Shown one piece after another: positions 24,133 through 33,780 of a stretch of 64,000 nucleotides of DNA. The notes below the pieces were generated by a model that was given only the letters and a program-made list of their open reading frames with translations, made no database searches and was not told where the DNA came from. The stretch spans positions 1 to 64,000 of the forward strand of contig CADEDA010000008.1 of the NCBI GenBank assembly GCA_902825965.1, read 5' to 3'. This DNA comes from an uncultured Gemmatimonadota bacterium (GTDB taxonomy: Bacteria > Gemmatimonadota > Gemmatimonadetes > Gemmatimonadales > Gemmatimonadaceae). A program made the translations under genes and the position numbers. Position 1 is the first letter of the stretch; each line of letters starts with the position of its first letter.

Positions 24133-25959
24133 CTACTCGACCGTGACCGACTTGGCGAGGTTGCGCGGCTGGTCCACGTTGGCGCCGCGCTTGACGGCGA
24201 TGTAGTACGCCAGCAGCTGCAGCGGCACCGACGCCAGCACCGGCGTGAGCATGTCCACCGTCTCGGGGATGCGGATCTCGTGGTCGATGAGGCCCGCGAG
24301 CGCGGGTTCCTCGCGGCTGGTGATGACGATGGTCTTGCCGTGGCGCGCCTTCACCTCCTGGATGTTCGACACGATCTTATCGAACACCGCATCGTGCGGC
24401 GCGATGAACACCACCGGCATGGACTCGTCGATCAGCGCGATCGGGCCGTGCTTCATCTCCGCCGCCGGGTACCCCTCGGCATGGATGTAGCTGATCTCCT
24501 TGAGCTTCAGCGCGCCCTCGAGGGCGGCGGGGAAGTTGTAGCCGCGGCCGAGGTACAGGAAGTTGTGGGCGTCCTTGTACGCGTCGGCGATCTGCTCGAT
24601 CGCCGCCGCCTGGTCGAGGATCGCCTGGATCTGCTTCGGCAGCGCGTCGAGCGCCTGGGCGATCTCGCGGCCCCGCATCACCGACAGCGTGCGCTTGCGC
24701 CCGAGCTTGAGCGCGAACAGCGCCAGCGCGATCACCTGGCTGGTGAAGGCCTTGGTGGAGGCCACGCCGATCTCGGGCCCGGCATGGAGGTAGATGCCGC
24801 CGTCGTCCTCGCGGGCGATGGTGGAGCCCACCACGTTCACGAACCCGAGCGTGTGCGCCCCGCGACGCTTGGCCTCGCGCATCGCGGCCAACGTGTCCGC
24901 CGTCTCGCCCGACTGCGAGATCACGATGCAGAGGGTGCGCGGAGTGATGATCGGGTTGCGGTAGCGGAACTCCGAGGCGTACTCCACCTCCACCGGGATC
25001 CGCGCGAAGTCCTCGATCATCATCTCGCCGATGAGCGCCGAGTGCCAGCTCGTGCCGCAGGCCGTGATGATGACGTTGTCCACGTTCATCAGCTGCTCGT
25101 GCGACATGTTGATGCCGCCGAGCTTCGAGGTGCCGTCCTCGAGGATCAACCGGCCGCGCATGGTGTTGCCCACGGTGGTCGGCTGCTCGAAGATCTCCTT
25201 GAGCATGAAGTGGTCGAACCCGCCGCGTTCGATCGCCTCGAGGTCCCACTCGATGCGCTCGACGGAGCGGCGGATCGGCGACGCGTTGATGTCCATCACG
25301 CGGTAGCCGTCCGGCGTGAGCACCGCGAGGTCGCCGTCATCGAGGTACACGACCTGGCGGGTGTGGGCGAGGATCGCCGACGCGTCGGAGGCCAGGAAGT
25401 ACTCGCCGTCGCCGATGCCGATGAGCAGCGGGCTGCCCTTGCGCGCCGCGACGATCTTGTGCGGGTCGCGGCTCGAGACCACCGCGATGCCGAACGTCCC
25501 CTCCACCTTCCGCAGCGCCCCGATCACGGCCTCCTCCAGCGAGCCGTCGTACAGCTCCTGCACGAGGTGCGAGATGGTCTCGGTATCGGTGTCCGAGCGG
25601 AACGTGTGCCCCAGCGCGGTGAGCTGCTTCCGGAGCACGTCGGCGTTCTCGATGATGCCGTTGTGCACGACCGCGACCGACTCGTCGGTGCTCAGGTGCG
25701 GATGGGCGTTGCGCTCGGTCGGCGGCCCGTGGGTGGCCCAGCGCGTGTGCGCGATGCCGACCTTGCCCGTGACCGGGTCCGCGGCGAGCGCACCCTCGAG
25801 CTTCACGATCTTCCCCGCCGCGCGACGCGTCTCCAGCGACTCGCCATCGAAGATGGCGACGCCCGCGCTGTCATAGCCCCGGTACTCGAGGCGCTTGAGG
25901 CCCTCGATGAGCAGCGGGGTGGCCTGCTTGGGGCCGATGTAGCCGACGATACCGCACAT
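24133..25959 (-). CDS. glmS: Glutamine-fructose-6-phosphate aminotransferase
   Basis: Makes glucosamine-6-phosphate for peptidoglycan and LPS precursors. 608 residues, standard length. The N-terminal glutaminase domain begins MCGIVGYIG with catalytic Cys2, then RWATHG and HNGIIEN. Two SIS isomerase domains follow (about 285-425 and 455-600) with TACGTSWHSAL, SQSGETADTLAA and EGALKLKEISYIHAEGYPAAEMKHGP. The C-terminus PRNLAKSVTVE is canonical. glmM is 63 bases upstream on the same strand. The leader is unusual: a pyrimidine-rich tract on the coding strand with no Shine-Dalgarno. I saw no glmS ribozyme-like structure. Confidence 0.97.
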   Translation of the reverse strand: MCGIVGYIGPKQATPLLIEGLKRLEYRGYDSAGVAIFDGESLETRRAAGKIVKLEGALAADPVTGKVGIAHTRWATHGPPTERNAHPHLSTDESVAVVHNGIIENADVLRKQLTALGHTFRSDTDTETISHLVQELYDGSLEEAVIGALRKVEGTFGIAVVSSRDPHKIVAARKGSPLLIGIGDGEYFLASDASAILAHTRQVVYLDDGDLAVLTPDGYRVMDINASPIRRSVERIEWDLEAIERGGFDHFMLKEIFEQPTTVGNTMRGRLILEDGTSKLGGINMSHEQLMNVDNVIITACGTSWHSALIGEMMIEDFARIPVEVEYASEFRYRNPIITPRTLCIVISQSGETADTLAAMREAKRRGAHTLGFVNVVGSTIAREDDGGIYLHAGPEIGVASTKAFTSQVIALALFALKLGRKRTLSVMRGREIAQALDALPKQIQAILDQAAAIEQIADAYKDAHNFLYLGRGYNFPAALEGALKLKEISYIHAEGYPAAEMKHGPIALIDESMPVVFIAPHDAVFDKIVSNIQEVKARHGKTIVITSREEPALAGLIDHEIRIPETVDMLTPVLASVPLQLLAYYIAVKRGANVDQPRNLAKSVTVE

Positions 25960-26022: not shown

Positions 26023-27390
26023 CTACGCCAACTTCGCCAACAGCTGCCGACCGCGCTCGACCAGCGACTTGGCCCCGTCCATCGTCGGGGCCTCCGCGAT
26101 CACCCGCACGATCGGTTCGGTGCCGGACGGGCGGATGTGCACCCAGCGGTCCGACCAGCCCAGCCGCAGCCCGTCCTGGGTGTCGGGCTCCGCGTCGGGG
26201 AAGGCCGCCGTGAGCGCTGCGTACACCGCGTCCAGCGGCTTCGCCGGACGATCCAGCTTGTCCTTCAGGATCGCATAACGCGGGAAGCGGCCGACCACCG
26301 TGGACAACGGCTCCCCATCCTCATGCATCATTTGCAAGACGAGTGCCACGCCCAGTGGCGCGTCGCGCCCCAGATGGAGTTCCGGCAGGATCACGCCCCC
26401 GTTGCCCTCCCCGCCGATCACGGCCCCCTCGGACCGCATGCGGAGCGCCACGTTGACCTCCCCCACGGGCGCCCGGATCACCCGGGAGCCCCCGGCAGCC
26501 GCCATGTCATCGACGATCCGGCTGGTCGAAAGGTTCGTGACGACGGGGCCTGAGCGATGGCGCAATACGACACGTGTCGCAAGCGCGAGCGTGTAATCCT
26601 CCCCGATGGCCCGTCCCTCGTCCGACACCAGGGCCAGCCGGTCCACGTCCGGGTCGGTCGCAAAGCCCACCTGCGCGTGGGACTCCTTCACCAGCCGTTC
26701 GAGCGCCCCGAGGTTCTCAGGCACCGGCTCCGGCGGTCGCGGGAACCGGCCGTCCGCCTCGAGTTCGATGGCCGTGACCTGGCAGCCGAGCAGCTCGAGG
26801 AGGCGGGGGATGATGGCGCCACCCGCCCCTCGGCAGGCGTCATACGCCACGCGGAAATGCCGCGAGCGGATGCCCTCCACGTCGATGAACGGCAGCGCGA
26901 GCACCTGGTCGAGGTGGCGCGCGAGGGCATCGCCGTCGAACCGGGTCTCGCCCAGCCGGTCCCAGGTGGCATACGGGGTCCCCTGCTCCACCAGTGCCCG
27001 CATCTCGGCGCCCTGCGCGGCGCTGAGGAAGAGGCCGTCCGGCCCGATGAACTTGAGGGCGTTCCATTCGATCGGGTTGTGGCTGGCCGTGATGCCCAAC
27101 CCGCCGGCCGCGTGATGGTGTTCCACCGCGAGCTGCAGCGAGGGCGTGGTCATGAGGCCGATGTCGATCACCTGCGCCCCGACGCTCTCGAGCGCGGCCC
27201 GCGTGACCGAGTGGAACAGCGGGCCCGTGACCCGCGAGTCACGTCCGAGCACCACCGCCTTGGACGGGCCGCGAGCGATGGCCCAGGCGCCGAACGCCGC
27301 CGCGTAGCGGGCGACGACTTCCGGCGTGAGTCCGAAGCCGACGCGGCCGCGGATGCCGGAGACGCTGATCATCAATCGGGGATCGGTCAC
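26023..27390 (-). CDS. Phosphoglucosamine/phosphomannomutase of the alpha-D-phosphohexomutase family (archaeal-like type)
   Basis: Interconverts hexose 6- and 1-phosphates; placement before glmS points to glucosamine phosphate (GlmM role). GTG 27390 gives 455 residues; ATG 27372 is an alternative. Phosphoserine loop GITASHNPIEWNALKF near 100, metal loop DPDVDRLA near 240, sugar loop GEGNGG near 320, phosphate loop RPSGTEPIVRV near 425. The ASHNPxExN and GExNGG wording is that of archaeal-type mutases; classical bacterial GlmM has GEQSGH. Substrate is thus inferred from context. Its start region diverges from the ligase-like gene by about 128 bases. Confidence 0.87.
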   Translation of the reverse strand: MTDPRLMISVSGIRGRVGFGLTPEVVARYAAAFGAWAIARGPSKAVVLGRDSRVTGPLFHSVTRAALESVGAQVIDIGLMTTPSLQLAVEHHHAAGGLGITASHNPIEWNALKFIGPDGLFLSAAQGAEMRALVEQGTPYATWDRLGETRFDGDALARHLDQVLALPFIDVEGIRSRHFRVAYDACRGAGGAIIPRLLELLGCQVTAIELEADGRFPRPPEPVPENLGALERLVKESHAQVGFATDPDVDRLALVSDEGRAIGEDYTLALATRVVLRHRSGPVVTNLSTSRIVDDMAAAGGSRVIRAPVGEVNVALRMRSEGAVIGGEGNGGVILPELHLGRDAPLGVALVLQMMHEDGEPLSTVVGRFPRYAILKDKLDRPAKPLDAVYAALTAAFPDAEPDTQDGLRLGWSDRWVHIRPSGTEPIVRVIAEAPTMDGAKSLVERGRQLLAKLA

Positions 27391-27518
27391 GTGCAGGTCT
27401 CGGATGGAGTGGGGGCGCGACACCGGCGTGCAGCTGCCCGGCACCGGTCGCGATGCGTGGAAGCTAGAGACTCGCCACAGGGGTTCAAGGCGCGCGACCG
27501 CCGCACGCGACACCCTTG

Positions 27519-29012
27519 GTGCACGCGGTGAGCCACGTCACCTTTCACGGGGTCGATCCACCCCTTCTCGTCGCTTCCGTGGACCTGCTCACGCTCCGCG
27601 CCGCCGCCGGCGGCGGCACACTCGACGGTCACGCCGCCGCGGCACTCGTCTCCGCCGGCTTCACCATGCTGCAGCGCGCGCCGGCCCTGGTCCGCGCCCT
27701 CGCCGGCCGCCGCGCCGCGATCCTCGTCCCGACCTCCCCGCAGTTCCTCGTCGCACTCGCGGCCAGCGACGGCCGCGGGGCGGTGCTCATCAACCCGCTC
27801 GCCGCACCGACCGAGATCGCGATGCAGCTCCGCGAGGCGAACGTCGGCGCGGTGTTCACCGTCGGTGCGCTCGCCGCACGACTGCCGCACGGCACGGTGC
27901 ACGTCCTGCTCGACGCCGCGCCGACGGAGGCGACCCTCGTCGCCGCCGACGGCCGCCAGGGCCGCATCGACCTCGGCTCGCATTTCGGCCTCTCGCTCGA
28001 GGGCGACGCCTCGGCGCCCGGTCGCGACGAGGAGTGCGCGATCGTCTTCACGTCCGCGATGGCCGGCTCGGCGCTGGGCGCGGTGCTGACGCACCGCAAC
28101 CTGCTCGCGAACGCCCTGCAGACGGTGGAGGCGGCGCAGAACTCGCGCGACGACCACGTGCTGGCCCTGTTGCCCTTCGCGCACCTGTTCGGCCTGACCC
28201 TCTCCGCGATGGCACCGCTGCTGGCCGGCGCACAGGTGACCACCATGGCGCGGTTCAACCCCGTCGCCGCCGTGGACACCATCGAACGCGACGGCATCAC
28301 CGAGGTGGTGGGGGTGCCCGCCGTGTTCACCGGGCTCCTGGCCGCCATCGAACGCCGTGGCCGGCCATTCGCGGCACCGGCGCTGCGCCTGTGCATCTGC
28401 GGCGGCGCGCCGCTGTCCCTGACGCTGCAGGAGCGCTGGGCCGCCGTCACGGGTGTCGAGTTGCGGCAGGGGTACGGCCTCACCGAGGCGTCACCGGTCG
28501 CGCTGTTCAACCGCGTCGACCGCGCGAACGTGCGCGGCGCCCTCGGCGTGCCGATGCCGGGCGTCGCGGTGAGCATCCGCGACCCGGAGTCGAGCGTAGC
28601 GCTGTCACCGGGTGCCGCGGGCGAGATCTGCGTCGCCGGCGAGACCGTCTTCCGCGGCTACCTCAAGCACGGTGCGCAGGGATTGCGGGTCGTCGACGGC
28701 TGGCTGCACACCGGCGACCGCGGCGTCGAACGCGCGGGCGGACAGGTCGAGTTCCTCGGGGTGCTCAAGCCCATGTTCACGCGCAACGGCTTCAACGTGT
28801 ATCCCCGCGAGGTGGAGCAGGTGCTCCTCGGCCTCGACGGGGTGGAGGCCGTGCGCTGCGTCGGGCATCCGGACGCCGCGAGTGAACACGAGGTCGCGGT
28901 GGAGATCACGCGGCGTGCCGGTACAAGCCTGCAGCTGCGCGACGTGAAGGCGTTCGCGGAGCAGCACCTCGCGGCGTACAAGCGCCCGTCCGTGATCACG
29001 TTCGTCGAGTAG
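27519..29012 (+). CDS. AMP-binding acyl-CoA synthetase-like protein lacking key catalytic motifs
   Basis: ANL superfamily protein, about 497 residues; GTG 27519 is taken as start, with TTG 27516 and GTG 27528 also in frame and no clear Shine-Dalgarno. Motifs A5 (QGYGLTEASP near 320), A7 (GWLHTGDRG near 400) and A8 (TRNGFNVYPREVE near 422) are intact. The phosphate-binding A3 loop, normally TSGTTGxPKG, reads FTSAMAGSALGAV and has no Lys. The chain stops at AYKRPSVITFVE, just before the PRTxTGK (A10) segment with the catalytic lysine; the downstream bases do not encode it in any frame. It may be unable to form acyl-adenylates by itself. The stop is two bases from the histidine kinase start. Confidence 0.85.
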   Translation: MHAVSHVTFHGVDPPLLVASVDLLTLRAAAGGGTLDGHAAAALVSAGFTMLQRAPALVRALAGRRAAILVPTSPQFLVALAASDGRGAVLINPLAAPTEIAMQLREANVGAVFTVGALAARLPHGTVHVLLDAAPTEATLVAADGRQGRIDLGSHFGLSLEGDASAPGRDEECAIVFTSAMAGSALGAVLTHRNLLANALQTVEAAQNSRDDHVLALLPFAHLFGLTLSAMAPLLAGAQVTTMARFNPVAAVDTIERDGITEVVGVPAVFTGLLAAIERRGRPFAAPALRLCICGGAPLSLTLQERWAAVTGVELRQGYGLTEASPVALFNRVDRANVRGALGVPMPGVAVSIRDPESSVALSPGAAGEICVAGETVFRGYLKHGAQGLRVVDGWLHTGDRGVERAGGQVEFLGVLKPMFTRNGFNVYPREVEQVLLGLDGVEAVRCVGHPDAASEHEVAVEITRRAGTSLQLRDVKAFAEQHLAAYKRPSVITFVE

Positions 29013-29014
29013 CC

Positions 29015-30865
29015 GTGCCTACCAGCAGCGCCCTCGCGGCCGGCGCCCCGCTCCTGCAGGCCCTGCTCACCCTCGGGTTGGCGCTGGTGCTGTGGCAGCT
29101 CTATCGCCGGCAGCACAAGGCACACTTCCTCTGGTGGGCCATCGCACTCGGCCTGCGGGTGCTCTCGGTGGGGGCCATCGCCGCGTTCATGTTCACGCGG
29201 GCCGAGTGGCTGCTCTACGCGCACCAGGTGCTGCTCGCGTGGACCGCGCTCGGACTCCTGTACGCCGCCGAGGTGTTCTCGCAGCAACTGGCCTGGGACC
29301 GACGCTACCTGTGGTGGCTCGCACTGCCGCTGGCTTGGTCGTACGTCGCGATCTTCGTGCTCGACAACTTCGCGCTCGCGGCTGGGCCGGCCGTGCTCTT
29401 CCTCGCCCTGGCGACCCTTCGGGCCGGCATCGTGTTCCGGCGCTACCGCCATCGCACTGCCTCCGCTGCGGCGGGGTTCCTCTCCTGGGTGATGTTCCTC
29501 TGGGCGGCGCACCATCTCGACTATCCCTTCCTGCGCGCCCGCGGGGCCTGGGATCCCTGGGGCTACTACCTCGACATCGCGTTCACGCTCGCCATGGGTG
29601 CGGGTGTCCTGCTGCTCGTCATCGAGGAGCAGCGTGAGGGCCTGCGCACCCTCACGGCACTCTCCGGGGACCTGCGCGCCGAGCTGCGTCCCGACGTACG
29701 TACCGAGTTGCGTAGCGAGTTGCGCAGCGAGTTGCGTAGCGAATCGCGCGGTGACGCGGCGGCGGCCGCCGCCGACACCGCGGATGATCCGCACGCCGCA
29801 CTGCTCGCCCGTCCGCTCGAACTGCGCGGGGTGCGCGGCGCGATGCTGCTGCGGATCGATCCGGATGCCTCACTCGAAGTGGTGCGCGGCGTCGGGGCCT
29901 GTGCGACCTGGCGCGCGGCGAGCATCCCGGAGCGGGTGGAGCAACTCGCACGCGACGCCGCGCGCCAGTCGCGGCCGCGGCTCCATGGTCGCCCCACCCC
30001 GAGCGGCGACACGCCGCCGTTCGTGGCGGCGCTCCCGCTCGGCCCGCATGGCAGCGCCGCACTCGTGCTCGTCGTGGTCGGCGATGTCGCCGCCCCCTTC
30101 GCGGCGCTCGACGACCGCATCCTCTCGGTGGTCGGCGAACAGGTGGGCGCGGCCCTCGAGCGCGACCGGCTCAGCCGCGGCCTCGCCCAGCGCAGCGAGG
30201 AGCTCGAGCGGCTCTCCGTGCGCATGCTGCAGGAACACGAGGCGCAGCGGCGGCGGCTGGGGCGCGAGCTGCACGACGAGACGGCCCAGGTGTACGCGGC
30301 GCTCAAGCTCCAGCTCGGACTGCTCCGCGAGGACGCGCCACCCGCGCTGCGGGAACGATTCGACCGGTTGCTGGGTTGGGTGGACCGCGGGAGCGACAGC
30401 ATCCGACACGTGACCGATGGCCTGCGCCCGGCGGTGCTGGACGACCTGGGCCTGCTGCCGGCACTGCGGGCACTGGTCGCCGACGTCCGCGAATGGAGCG
30501 GCCTCACGGTCGGGTTCGACACCGCGCGCTGGACCTCGACCGCGCGGGGATTGCTGGGGCAGGACGCCGAGGTGGCGCTCTTCCGCGGGCTGCAGGAGGC
30601 CCTCAGCAACGCCGTGCGCCACGCGCAGGCCCAGCACATCCACGTCACCCTCGAGTTGCTCGACGACCGCGCGCGCCTTACGGTGCAGGACGACGGCGTC
30701 GGACTCGGCGCCGAGCGTCGCGCGCAGCTCGCCACCGGCCCGGGGCGCTCCGGCCTCATCGGGATGCGGGAGCGCATCGCCGCCGCCGGCGGGACGCTCG
30801 TCCTCGACGGCGCGTTGCCCACCGGCCTCCTCGTGCGACTCGACCTTCCGCGTCGTCAGCCATGA
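29015..30865 (+). CDS. Seven-helix membrane histidine kinase with GAF and HisKA_3 domains (NarL-type)
   Basis: 616 residues from GTG 29015. About seven membrane helices fill residues 10-205, including a helix with AAHHLDYPF. A linker at about 215-250 is built of ELRS repeats. A GAF-like domain spans about 260-390, a coiled helix 390-415, then HisKA_3 dimerisation with the phospho-acceptor His in GRELHDETAQVYAALKLQ near 425, and a HATPase_c domain with EALSNAVRHAQ (N box) and DDGVGLG (G1 box). It overlaps the response regulator by four bases (ATGA), its sure partner. The signal sensed by the membrane part is unknown. Confidence 0.92.
   Translation: MPTSSALAAGAPLLQALLTLGLALVLWQLYRRQHKAHFLWWAIALGLRVLSVGAIAAFMFTRAEWLLYAHQVLLAWTALGLLYAAEVFSQQLAWDRRYLWWLALPLAWSYVAIFVLDNFALAAGPAVLFLALATLRAGIVFRRYRHRTASAAAGFLSWVMFLWAAHHLDYPFLRARGAWDPWGYYLDIAFTLAMGAGVLLLVIEEQREGLRTLTALSGDLRAELRPDVRTELRSELRSELRSESRGDAAAAAADTADDPHAALLARPLELRGVRGAMLLRIDPDASLEVVRGVGACATWRAASIPERVEQLARDAARQSRPRLHGRPTPSGDTPPFVAALPLGPHGSAALVLVVVGDVAAPFAALDDRILSVVGEQVGAALERDRLSRGLAQRSEELERLSVRMLQEHEAQRRRLGRELHDETAQVYAALKLQLGLLREDAPPALRERFDRLLGWVDRGSDSIRHVTDGLRPAVLDDLGLLPALRALVADVREWSGLTVGFDTARWTSTARGLLGQDAEVALFRGLQEALSNAVRHAQAQHIHVTLELLDDRARLTVQDDGVGLGAERRAQLATGPGRSGLIGMRERIAAAGGTLVLDGALPTGLLVRLDLPRRQP
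29705..29740 (+). repeat. 12-bp tandem repeat coding ELRS units
   Basis: Three in-frame copies of GAGTTGCGTAGC (the middle copy has one C for T) flanked by degenerate copies. They code ELRS-ELRS-ELRS in the linker between the membrane part and the GAF domain of the histidine kinase. A length change by one unit would shift a helix by just over one turn. Confidence 0.75.
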
Positions 30866-31515
30866 CCGAACCCGCGATCCGCCTCCTCATCGTCGATGAC
30901 CATCCGCTCGTGCGCGAGGGCATCCGCGGGGCGCTCTCGACCGCGGGGTTCACGGTGTTGGCGGATGTCGGCAACGCCGAGGACGCCATCGCGGCGGCGC
31001 GGCGCGACCCACCGGACGTGGTCGTCATGGACATCACGCTTCCCGGACTGAACGGCATCGAGGCCGTGGAGGTGCTGCGGCGCGAGCACCCCGCCCTGCG
31101 CGTGCTCATGCTCTCGGTGCACGACCATCCCGAGTACGTACTCGAGAGCGTGCGTGCCGGCGCCCATGGCTACCTGCGCAAGGACTCCCTGCCCGAGGAG
31201 TTGCGGGCCGCCGTCCGCACCGTGCAGCGCGGCAACACCGTCTTCCCCGCGGCGCGCGCCGGCGCGACCGAGACGCAGGCGCCGATCCTCGCCGCCGCTG
31301 CGGAACGCCTCGAACTGCTCACGCGCCGCGAACGCGACGTGCTCGTCGGCATCGCGAGCGGCAAGGCCAACAAGGAGATCGCGGCGGACCTCGCCCTGAG
31401 CGTGCGCACCGTGGAGGGCTATCGCGAGTCCCTCATGAACAAGCTCGCGATCAAGACCACGGCCGGGCTCACGCGCTTCGCGATGGAGTCCCGCCTGCTG
31501 GGACGCGCCCCGTAG
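30862..31515 (+). CDS. LuxR/NarL-type response regulator
   Basis: 217 residues. Receiver domain 1-125 with acidic residues in VDDHP, phospho-acceptor Asp57 (VVVMDITLPG) and Lys in LRKDS. A GerE-type helix-turn-helix spans about 150-210 (LTRRERDVLVGIASGKANKEIAADLALSVRTVEGYRESLMNKL). It partners the overlapping histidine kinase. A TonB-dependent receptor lies 108 bases downstream and may be a target. Confidence 0.95.
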   Translation: MTEPAIRLLIVDDHPLVREGIRGALSTAGFTVLADVGNAEDAIAAARRDPPDVVVMDITLPGLNGIEAVEVLRREHPALRVLMLSVHDHPEYVLESVRAGAHGYLRKDSLPEELRAAVRTVQRGNTVFPAARAGATETQAPILAAAAERLELLTRRERDVLVGIASGKANKEIAADLALSVRTVEGYRESLMNKLAIKTTAGLTRFAMESRLLGRAP

Positions 31516-31623: not shown

Positions 31624-33780
31624 ATGCGCCCCTCGTTGCTCCTCGGTGCGGCCCTGCTCGGCCTCGCCGGTCTCCACGCGCCACTCGCGGCACAACAGGC
31701 AGACACCAGCGGCAAGCTCGTGAAGCTCGCGCCCGTCGGCATCACGGCGACGCGGACCGAGTCCGCCGTGCTGCGCACCGCCGCGCCGCTCCTCGTCATC
31801 GACTCCTCGACGCTGCGCCGCGACTACCCCAACGGCATCGGTGACGTGTTCCGCAACATGCCCGGTGTCGATGTCACCGGCGTCGGCCCCAACCAGGTGC
31901 GGCTCATGATCCGCGGCCAGCGCGGCCAGCGCATCCTGCTCGCCGAGGACGGCATGCGCCTCAACAACGCGCGTCGGCAGCAGGATTTCGGCGAGCTCTC
32001 GGCCATCACCGACGTCAACACCGTGGAGCGCGTCGAGGTGCTGCGCGGCCCGTCGTCGGTGCTCTACGGCACCGACGCGATCGGCGGCGTGGTGAACCAG
32101 CTCAGCCTCGGCACCCCCGCGCGCGGGCGCGACGCGATCTCGGGCACGTCGTTCTACCGGTACAATGCCGCGGACGCGCAGGACGCCGGTCACCTGCGCG
32201 TCGCGGGCCGCGAGGGCGCGTTCGGCTTCGCGCTCTCCACCTCGCATCGCACGGCGCAGGCGTATCGTGCGCCGTCCGGGCGCTTCGGCGACCTCACGCT
32301 CGCGCGGGCGACCACCGTGCGCGACGCCGGGGTGCAGGACCGCGCGCACGCCGCGCAGGTCTCGCTGGACCTCGGTGCGCGGCAGCAGCTCGCGCTCAAG
32401 GTCACGCGCTACGATGCCCGCAATGCCGGGTACGGCTACGTCGATCCGCGCGCGCTGGGCGACTCCAGCGGCGCCGTCATCCGCCTGCTGTATCCGGAGC
32501 AGACCGTGGACCGTGCCGTGCTCTCCTGGCAGGCGACCGCCCTCGGCTCCCGGTTCGCCGACCGCGTGAGCGTCACCGCCTCCAACAGCCGCAACGACCG
32601 CGTCTTCCGCCAGGCCCTCGACATCCCCTTCACGCCGACCGCCGGCATGACGATCCGCGACCGCAACGTCACGGAGATGCGCTCGGACGGCCTGCGCGTG
32701 GAGGCCACCAAGGTCAGCGCACGCGGCCACGTGTTCACCTACGGCGCCGATTGGTACCGCGACCGCTCCGTGAACTCGGACTCGAGCGTCACGCGCATGT
32801 ACGGGTTCGGCCCGCCGTCCACCACCACCAGCACCACGCCGAACCTGCCCAACGCCTGGTTCTGGACCGGTGGCATCTTCGCACAGGGCCGCTTCCAGGC
32901 GGGCGACCGCGTGGAGCTGGGTGCGGGACTGCGTGGGCAGTCCATCCAGTCGGAGACCCGGGCGACCGCGGGGCTGCCGGCGGATCGCGCCGGCGTCGCG
33001 GCGAGCGCGGAAGCCGTGGTGGGGCAGCTGAGCGCGCGGTACCGCCTGCAGGAGGACATGCACCTCGTCGCCTCCCTCGGACGCGCGTTCCGGGCGCCGA
33101 ACCTGATCGAGCGCTACTTCGAGGGCGCGACCACCGACGGCAGCGGCTACCAGCTGGCCACCCCCGACCTCGATCCCGAGACCAGCCTCAACGTGGACCT
33201 CGGCATCAAGTTCCGTCGGTCCCGCGTGTACGGTGAGGTCACGGTGTTCATGAACACCATCGACGACGCGATCCGCATCGTGGACGCCGACACGACCGTG
33301 AACGGCTTCGATGGCTATCGCAACGCGAACGTCGACCGCCTGCGCGACACCGGCATCGAGGCCCTCGCGGAAGTGCAGCTCGGACGCGGCTTCTCGGTGC
33401 TCGGCTACGTGTCGACGCTGGACTCCAAGAACGTGGACACCGAGACCTCGGTGGGGGACAGCTACGGCAGCAAGCTCGGCGGCGAGCTGGGCTGGCGCAC
33501 GCCGGGTGGTGCCTGGGGCCTGCGCTACGACGTGCGGCACCAGGGCGAACGCAAGGACGTCGTGCTGAGCGGCAGCCCGGTCGGCGACCGGCTGCCGGCG
33601 TTCACGGTGCACGCGCTCCGCAGCACGCTGCGCCTGCCGTCGCTGCGCACCGTGCAGCCGACGCTGGACCTGGCGGTCACCAACCTCACCAACACGCTCT
33701 ACGCCGAGGCGTCCAACACCGGCTTCTTCCGTCCGGAGCCGCCGCGCAGCCTCTCGGCGGCGCTGCGATTCGACTTCTAG
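31624..33780 (+). CDS. TonB-dependent outer-membrane receptor
   Basis: 718 residues with signal peptide MRPSLLLGAALLGLAGLHAPLAAQ. Plug domain about 40-160: TRTESAVLRTAAPLLVID, IGDVFRNMPGVDV, VRLMIRGQRGQRILLAEDGMRLN and the conserved VERVEVLRGPSSVLYGTDAIGGVVN. The 22-strand barrel follows and ends in SLSAALRFDF with a terminal Phe. The nearest wording is of BtuB/CirA-like receptors, but substrate (siderophore, cobalamin, metal or sugar) cannot be assigned. I looked for a cobalamin riboswitch in the 108-base leader and saw none. A strong hairpin follows the stop. Confidence 0.93.
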   Translation: MRPSLLLGAALLGLAGLHAPLAAQQADTSGKLVKLAPVGITATRTESAVLRTAAPLLVIDSSTLRRDYPNGIGDVFRNMPGVDVTGVGPNQVRLMIRGQRGQRILLAEDGMRLNNARRQQDFGELSAITDVNTVERVEVLRGPSSVLYGTDAIGGVVNQLSLGTPARGRDAISGTSFYRYNAADAQDAGHLRVAGREGAFGFALSTSHRTAQAYRAPSGRFGDLTLARATTVRDAGVQDRAHAAQVSLDLGARQQLALKVTRYDARNAGYGYVDPRALGDSSGAVIRLLYPEQTVDRAVLSWQATALGSRFADRVSVTASNSRNDRVFRQALDIPFTPTAGMTIRDRNVTEMRSDGLRVEATKVSARGHVFTYGADWYRDRSVNSDSSVTRMYGFGPPSTTTSTTPNLPNAWFWTGGIFAQGRFQAGDRVELGAGLRGQSIQSETRATAGLPADRAGVAASAEAVVGQLSARYRLQEDMHLVASLGRAFRAPNLIERYFEGATTDGSGYQLATPDLDPETSLNVDLGIKFRRSRVYGEVTVFMNTIDDAIRIVDADTTVNGFDGYRNANVDRLRDTGIEALAEVQLGRGFSVLGYVSTLDSKNVDTETSVGDSYGSKLGGELGWRTPGGAWGLRYDVRHQGERKDVVLSGSPVGDRLPAFTVHALRSTLRLPSLRTVQPTLDLAVTNLTNTLYAEASNTGFFRPEPPRSLSAALRFDF

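Follow-up and report, generated by a model that had tools for sequence, protein, structure and literature searches.

A putative non-adenylating ANL protein lacking the A10 segment in the Gemmatimonadaceae, and its loosely attached sensor kinase

The window (the whole 64,000-nucleotide stretch of DNA that was analysed) encodes a protein of the ANL superfamily which, on balance, is probably an old pseudoenzyme, i.e., a non-adenylating protein that works through the binding of an acyl/CoA ligand or of a partner, the histidine kinase encoded downstream belonging to a separate module. The protein would be a member of an old group of pseudoenzymes derived from acyl-CoA ligases, here named “A10-less ANL,” in which acyl-AMP formation would have disappeared together with the A3 lysine, the A8 arginine and the A10 segment. 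Function would be exerted by binding, either of an acyl/CoA ligand in a thioester-type conformation or of a protein partner. In the Gemmatimonadaceae, this role would be carried by the N-terminal alpha/beta domain, the remainder having been discarded in many lineages. The kinase, its regulator and a TonB receptor would constitute a separate module that arrived downstream in one branch of the genus and that probably shares the transcription of the ANL gene, not its mechanism.

The ANL-type protein and its full-length orthologues

The features of the protein are listed below; motifs A3 to A10 are given the names and roles usual for ANL enzymes.

27579..29012, + strand: putative A10-less ANL pseudo-ligase (Pfam AMP-binding, 3.7e-58, and partial AMP-binding_C; open frame from 27516)
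27579..28055, + strand: N-terminal alpha/beta part, present in 27/27 aligned shortened (eroded) orthologues (occupancy and conservation table)
27969..27992, + strand: DLGSHFGL, family-specific motif (alignment of family and other proteins)
28047..28094, + strand: A3 loop FTSAMAGSALGAVLTH, Lys replaced by Leu187 and Thr by Met182
28470..28487, + strand: A5 GYGLTE, intact (Glu in 37/37 family rows)
28710..28718, + strand: A7 TGD, intact (Asp in 37/37 family rows)
28758..28811, + strand: A8 GVLKPMFTRNGFNVYPRE, hinge Lys retained, Arg gone (Leu or Val there in 37/37 rows)
28977..29012, + strand: C-terminal end YKRPSVITFVE and stop codon (TAG, 29010-29012), after which A10 would be expected (absent in 36/36 complete full-length rows)

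Fold and descent within the ANL superfamily are indicated by Foldseek matches to MatB and 4CL, with E down to 3e-38. The protein resembles ANL acyl-CoA ligases of the FadD/PRK06187 type in its fold, its Pfam AMP-binding domain and its retained A4, A5 and A7 motifs, but differs from them by being devoid of the phosphate-loop lysine of A3, the A8 arginine and the A10 segment. Its best NCBIfam model, NF004837, scores 229.5 bits, under the cut-off of 476, and the AMP-binding_C match covers the first 67 of 76 positions (Pfam, window ORF 27516-29012). Among the residues expected of an active ANL acyl-CoA ligase, the A5 Glu and A7 Asp are found, and the A3 Lys, A8 Arg and A10 Lys are not. The start at 27519 given by the initial annotation is slightly off, GTG 27579 being likelier since conservation starts at residue 22; residues 1-21 of the frame are unfolded in the predicted model.

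Some ANL match was detected in every one of the 199 genomes searched, which were mostly of the same genus and family. Fifty-seven loci from the Gemmatimonadaceae were judged orthologous and were taken with an ordinary ligase (L058) as outgroup; in a 200-genome search of the phylum, full-strength matches of the window type were listed solely in this family. Thirty-seven full-length family rows were aligned, 36 of them complete for A10 and one (L070) truncated where its contig ends. The comparison set (n = 80) consisted of 78 other proteins among the pattern-scan matches listed, the outgroup ligase and an ordinary ligase with an A3 Lys and A10 that the window's own genome also encodes (L232).

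The losses reported by the initial annotation for the window protein extend to the full-length members of the family. At A3, the alignment columns hold Met in place of Thr in 37/37 family rows and Leu in place of Lys in 37/37, vs. Lys in 73, Leu in 6 and Arg in 1 of the comparison proteins. A10 is missing from 36/36 complete family rows, vs. a Lys in 73 of the 80 comparison proteins and none in 7, themselves A10-less relatives treated below. As every complete full-length orthologue ends at the same place, a C-terminal frameshift or sequencing error is excluded. The same annotation described A5, A7 and A8 as kept, which holds for the Glu of A5 and the Asp of A7 and only in part for A8: the hinge Lys is retained in 37/37 rows, but the Arg has given way to Leu in 25 and to Val in 12. 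In the window protein, this A8 stretch (GVLKPMFTRNGFNVYP) bears a Val at the position that is Arg in 79/80 comparison proteins. The strict form of the DLGSHFGL motif occurs in 26/37 full-length family rows vs. 0/78 other proteins.

In terms of established ANL chemistry, the window protein should not form acyl-AMP, because the residues of the ATP half-reaction have been lost, and the proposal that it is non-catalytic, or at least non-adenylating, gains from sequence losses that are common to all full-length orthologues. By analogy, this argument is weakened by WNK1, which is active despite its lost lysine, as a lysine that has disappeared might be replaceable from elsewhere. WNK1 is treated among pseudokinases as a kinase without the usual lysine (PMC10211241).

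The predicted full-length model of the window protein (pLDDT 87.0, 17 sequences in the alignment) adopts a thioester-type conformation. It superposes at about 4 Å on thioester-type structures such as 5bst, 3cw9 (titled as thioester-forming) and 4g37 (in the second catalytic conformation), compared with about 11 Å for the ATP-bound structures 4fut and 5bsm, both distances being for the window-protein model alone.

A10-less relatives in the class of Syntrophus and in the Spirochaetota

Two peptide patterns were used to scan the contigs of 84,980 species. Among the matches listed, two more family members (56 and 53%) were followed by proteins at about 33%, at least seven of which are without A10: six from Syntrophus and relatives and one from a spirochaete. 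Of the 119 genomes searched from the class of Syntrophus, 98 contain a close relative (E ≤ 1e-120). These A10-less proteins (L157 type) are alike in having the A3 Lys replaced and in ending just after YKxP, with no A10, but differ from the window protein, to which they are about 33% identical, by an A8 Arg that is mostly kept and by the thiolase or enoyl-CoA hydratase genes downstream. Fourteen rows from this class have Leu (11), Arg (2) or His (1) at the A3 Lys position, the A8 Arg in 13, and no A10 Lys in any of the 14 (13 gaps, one Gly). The 3′ gene, counted as the first match on the same strand no more than 300 bp away at the best-matching loci, mostly with 1.5-kb flanks, codes for a thiolase in 14 of 22 distinct genomes and for an enoyl-CoA hydratase in two; in the other six, no such match was seen. 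The wider family therefore points to acyl-CoA metabolism.

Ten of the 120 Spirochaetota genomes searched gave a match; nine of the proteins at the best-match loci are without A10, the remaining one (L262) being an ordinary ligase. The A10-less proteins of this phylum (L153 type) share with the window family a closely similar A3 loop, FTSAMxGxxLGA, and the absence of A10 (9/9), but have other neighbour genes and the A8 Arg in 8/9; at the A3 Lys position, eight carry Leu and one Lys. The latter protein (L256; FTSASDGNAKGALLTH), A10-less yet provided with the A3 lysine, is possibly an intermediate state. Directly 3′ of the spirochaete gene, about 110 nt are conserved (L253:3010-3125, likewise L254-L256 and L258-L260). 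This block comprises a hairpin with one compensatory pair (3/7 sequences) and a nearly invariant stretch, and is a candidate RNA element; a search of the seven loci against Rfam gave no family at the gathering threshold.

When the A3 and A10 columns were excluded, all A10-less rows fell on one side of a branch with support of 35 and 89 in two quick trees. With A8 excluded as well and under a plain model, that grouping was recovered in 44% of bootstrap trees, and the best tree splits the A10-less rows. In the tree without A3, A8 and A10, the window family and the Spirochaetota join at 100/98, both on long branches. A common origin of these two groups is likely as judged from such trees, and one common origin of the A10-less ANL proteins across all three groups is possible.

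The locus, the shortened forms and selection

Upstream of the ANL gene, on the opposite strand, the window contains the following:

26023..27390 (open frame to 27513), - strand: phosphoglucomutase/phosphomannomutase family gene, glmM-like (Pfam PGM_PMM I-IV)
24133..25959, - strand: glmS-like aminotransferase (Pfam SIS and GATase)

Within the window, no tRNA was found by ARAGORN, the Rfam search gave nothing at the gathering threshold, and the scan for promoters and terminators gave nothing above chance. Among the 57 orthologous loci, the ANL gene is divergent from the glmM-like gene in 54/54 in which both are visible. The other 62 Gemmatimonadaceae genomes were searched for the glmM-like gene, and 54 stretches from 53 genomes were taken, nine genomes having no usable 5′ end of this gene (G014, G023, G026, G042, G043, G075, G081, G093, and G102). 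Eight of the 53 genomes have a shortened ANL gene and 45 have none visible, including four in which the contig ends too early to judge; the label “absent” is also unsafe for G049 (L108) because its contig ends beyond the MCP gene. Overall, an ANL gene was seen in 65/119 genomes of the family. With or without it, the block consists of glmS and the glmM-like gene on one side and, in the divergent direction, (MCP-type), (ANL), REC-HD-GYP, metC-type, M48, and purD, the last name being read from sequence only. The MCP-type gene lies between the glmM-like and ANL genes at L071:294-2066 and at 12 more loci, often 10-30 bp from the latter. Within the genus, a DUF3179 gene changes its place relative to metC, the kinase module and the ANL gene (L061:6491-7640, L060:11177-12355, L037:5005-6147).

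Twenty-seven shortened orthologues of 186-422 residues were aligned, L045 being omitted as its frame was taken too short, although the match is real. Residues 21-180 are present as an open frame in 27/27, the A3 loop (residues 181-190) is gone from about 10/27, and occupancy drops to about 6/27 at residue 400 and is close to nil over the C-terminal domain, which as such is found in none. Among the positions conserved in 80% or more of the short and of the full rows alike are His156 (27/27 eroded and 34/37 full-length rows) and His193 (27/27 and 37/37, respectively). The predicted model of a 253-residue eroded form (pLDDT 92.5) corresponds to A-domains over their N-terminal part.

The 106 glmM-like proteins of an unrooted tree, which has some long branches, were scored for their ANL state as full (34), eroded (27), absent (41) or unknown (4), which requires 20 changes; the eroded label requires 10 changes, at least seven of which are forced by well-supported branches. 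Since 41 of the 102 placed glmM loci were scored without an ANL protein, the gene is dispensable. Because many lineages have independently discarded the remainder, the N-terminal alpha/beta domain appears to be the useful part in the Gemmatimonadaceae; the regions of A5, A7 and A8 are missing from eroded forms, and the role retained in all lineages therefore cannot be acyl/CoA binding.

The ANL gene of the Gemmatimonadaceae stays protein-coding under selection. Differences per site rank third > first > second codon position in 18/18 pairs of full and eroded forms, e.g., 0.467, 0.213, and 0.13 for third, first and second positions in the full pair L087/L059, and 0.37, 0.19, and 0.11 in the eroded pair L053/L054. 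These counts were used in place of dN/dS because third positions, nearly all G or C, are saturated, making dN/dS unreliable for pairs other than the closest one (L066/L067), which gave 0.20 for the N part, 0.05 for the core and 0.24 for the C part.

The kinase module and the competing explanations

Three genes follow the ANL gene in the window:

29015..30865, + strand: histidine kinase, HisKA_3 and HATPase_c (Pfam; 6-7 hydrophobic stretches)
30862..31515, + strand: NarL/FixJ-type response regulator, Response_reg (REC) and GerE
31624..33780, + strand: TonB-dependent receptor (Pfam), accompanying the kinase and the regulator

The gene spacing given by the initial annotation is correct: the kinase GTG (29015) stands two bases past the ANL stop, and the regulator, with its ATG at 30862, has a 4-bp overlap with the end of the kinase gene. 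The seven membrane helices attributed to the kinase are compatible with the six or seven hydrophobic stretches that a hydropathy scan finds in residues 1-205, which are no proof of that number. The kinase and regulator domains are those of UhpB/NarX-type HisKA_3 kinases with NarL-type regulators, but the window kinase differs by an unnamed multi-helix sensor part and falls under every NCBIfam cut-off listed. The linker after its membrane part (window 29677-29750) contains a repeated ELRS/ELRP unit, ELRPDVRTELRSELRSELRSES, which is absent from the closest orthologue (L059).

The sensor kinase is a late, loosely attached neighbour of the ANL gene, not its fixed partner. It lies 3′ of the ANL gene at 5/57 loci, all from the window's own genus (G000, G016, G005, G009, and G006, the kinase of the last being split between contigs), which is not the conserved linkage expected of an obligate sensor subunit. 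In these five genomes, the TonB receptor always accompanies the kinase (5/5). Kinase homologues matched over both the membrane and kinase parts occur elsewhere in 10 of the 28 genomes searched (G019, G028, G035, G038, G046, G060, G080, G097, G108, and G118), and in two of these ten, G035 and G118, the glmM locus is without an ANL gene. Regulators adjoin four of five such kinase loci examined; at one with a regulator, in G080 (L230), a TonB receptor is partly matched as well. Most plausibly, the kinase is a neighbour that came in together with its own regulator and receptor. Synteny and the kinase search of 28 genomes rule out a conserved partnership, and the idea that the ANL protein is dedicated to the kinase is not supported, given the 52/57 orthologue loci without a kinase and the kinase homologues that occur without an ANL gene. 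The orthologues named by the initial annotation as counting against it, unlinked to the kinase and complete at the C-terminus, were found in the former respect but not in the latter (0/36).

An explanation in which the ANL protein serves the neighbouring kinase as its ligand sensor or co-sensor, binding an acyl-CoA or acyl-AMP and altering kinase activity, is very unlikely. It can draw on the 2-bp gap and 4-bp overlap in the window, on small gaps at 3/4 of the other kinase-bearing loci, on further signalling genes near the orthologues (REC-HD-GYP at 26/57 and MCP-type at 13/57 loci), and on the ANL hinge motion, which is artificially convertible to a sensor (PMC10590383). However, the kinase adjoins the ANL gene in so few loci, in G009 the two are some 1.1 kb apart, a DUF3179-type gene (assigned by a Pfam run on the homologue in L037) lying between them, the HD-GYP gene remains at the locus without the ANL gene, and elsewhere kinase homologues pair with a regulator and no ANL gene. 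More remote still is the initial annotation's alternative of a split ligase, active because another protein supplies A10, which we regard as scarcely credible. The gene that follows in a few Syntrophus relatives begins with MGKIPQKLE, which is slightly A10-like, but other relatives have MEKIPQKLD or similar there, with no Gly-Lys pair; the gene after the window protein begins as a membrane helix, the A3 lysine is gone too, and the whole C-terminal domain has been lost in many lineages. The split ligase was rejected after the frames following the gene in relatives from the class of Syntrophus and from spirochaetes had been read for such a segment, and no A10-like frame occurs in the DNA after the window gene.

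Two further explanations concern the ANL protein itself. A half-enzyme that no longer adenylates and still runs the thioester step, e.g., on acyl-AMP or acyl-CoA from another enzyme, would agree with the retention of A5, A7, the hinge and most of the A8 loop, with the thioester-like predicted model and with the beta-oxidation neighbours in the class of Syntrophus. It is nevertheless unlikely, as the A8 Arg is lost in 37/37 rows of the window family and the whole region is missing from the eroded relatives. Quite unlikely, too, is a functionless, decaying gene that persists solely because the neighbourhood of the glmM-like gene is conserved. Decay would fit the gradual loss of length in many lineages and the total absence in many others; the long open frames, the concentration of changes at third positions even in short forms, and the positions retained across distant genera in short and full rows do not. 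The reading of the protein as an old, non-adenylating pseudoenzyme that acts by binding is the one that we prefer. More tentatively, and with rather less than an even chance of being right, a non-adenylating ANL branch, marked by the absence of A10 and mostly also of the A3 lysine, nearly universal in the class of Syntrophus and represented in spirochaetes and the Gemmatimonadaceae, may have arisen long ago and taken on, in the last of these, a new non-enzymatic N-terminal role, hence the repeated paring to about 200 residues.

A literature search of a library with few subscription journals found, among the papers listed, no description of such an A10-less ANL family, and no paper of that library combines “ANL superfamily” with “pseudoenzyme.” Should A10-less ANL proteins be pseudoenzymes, annotations may overstate fatty-acid metabolism across whole bacterial groups, including syntrophs. 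The series that leads from a presumed dead ligase of 480 residues to a single domain of 200 residues would amount to a natural experiment that shows where in a pseudoenzyme the function resides.
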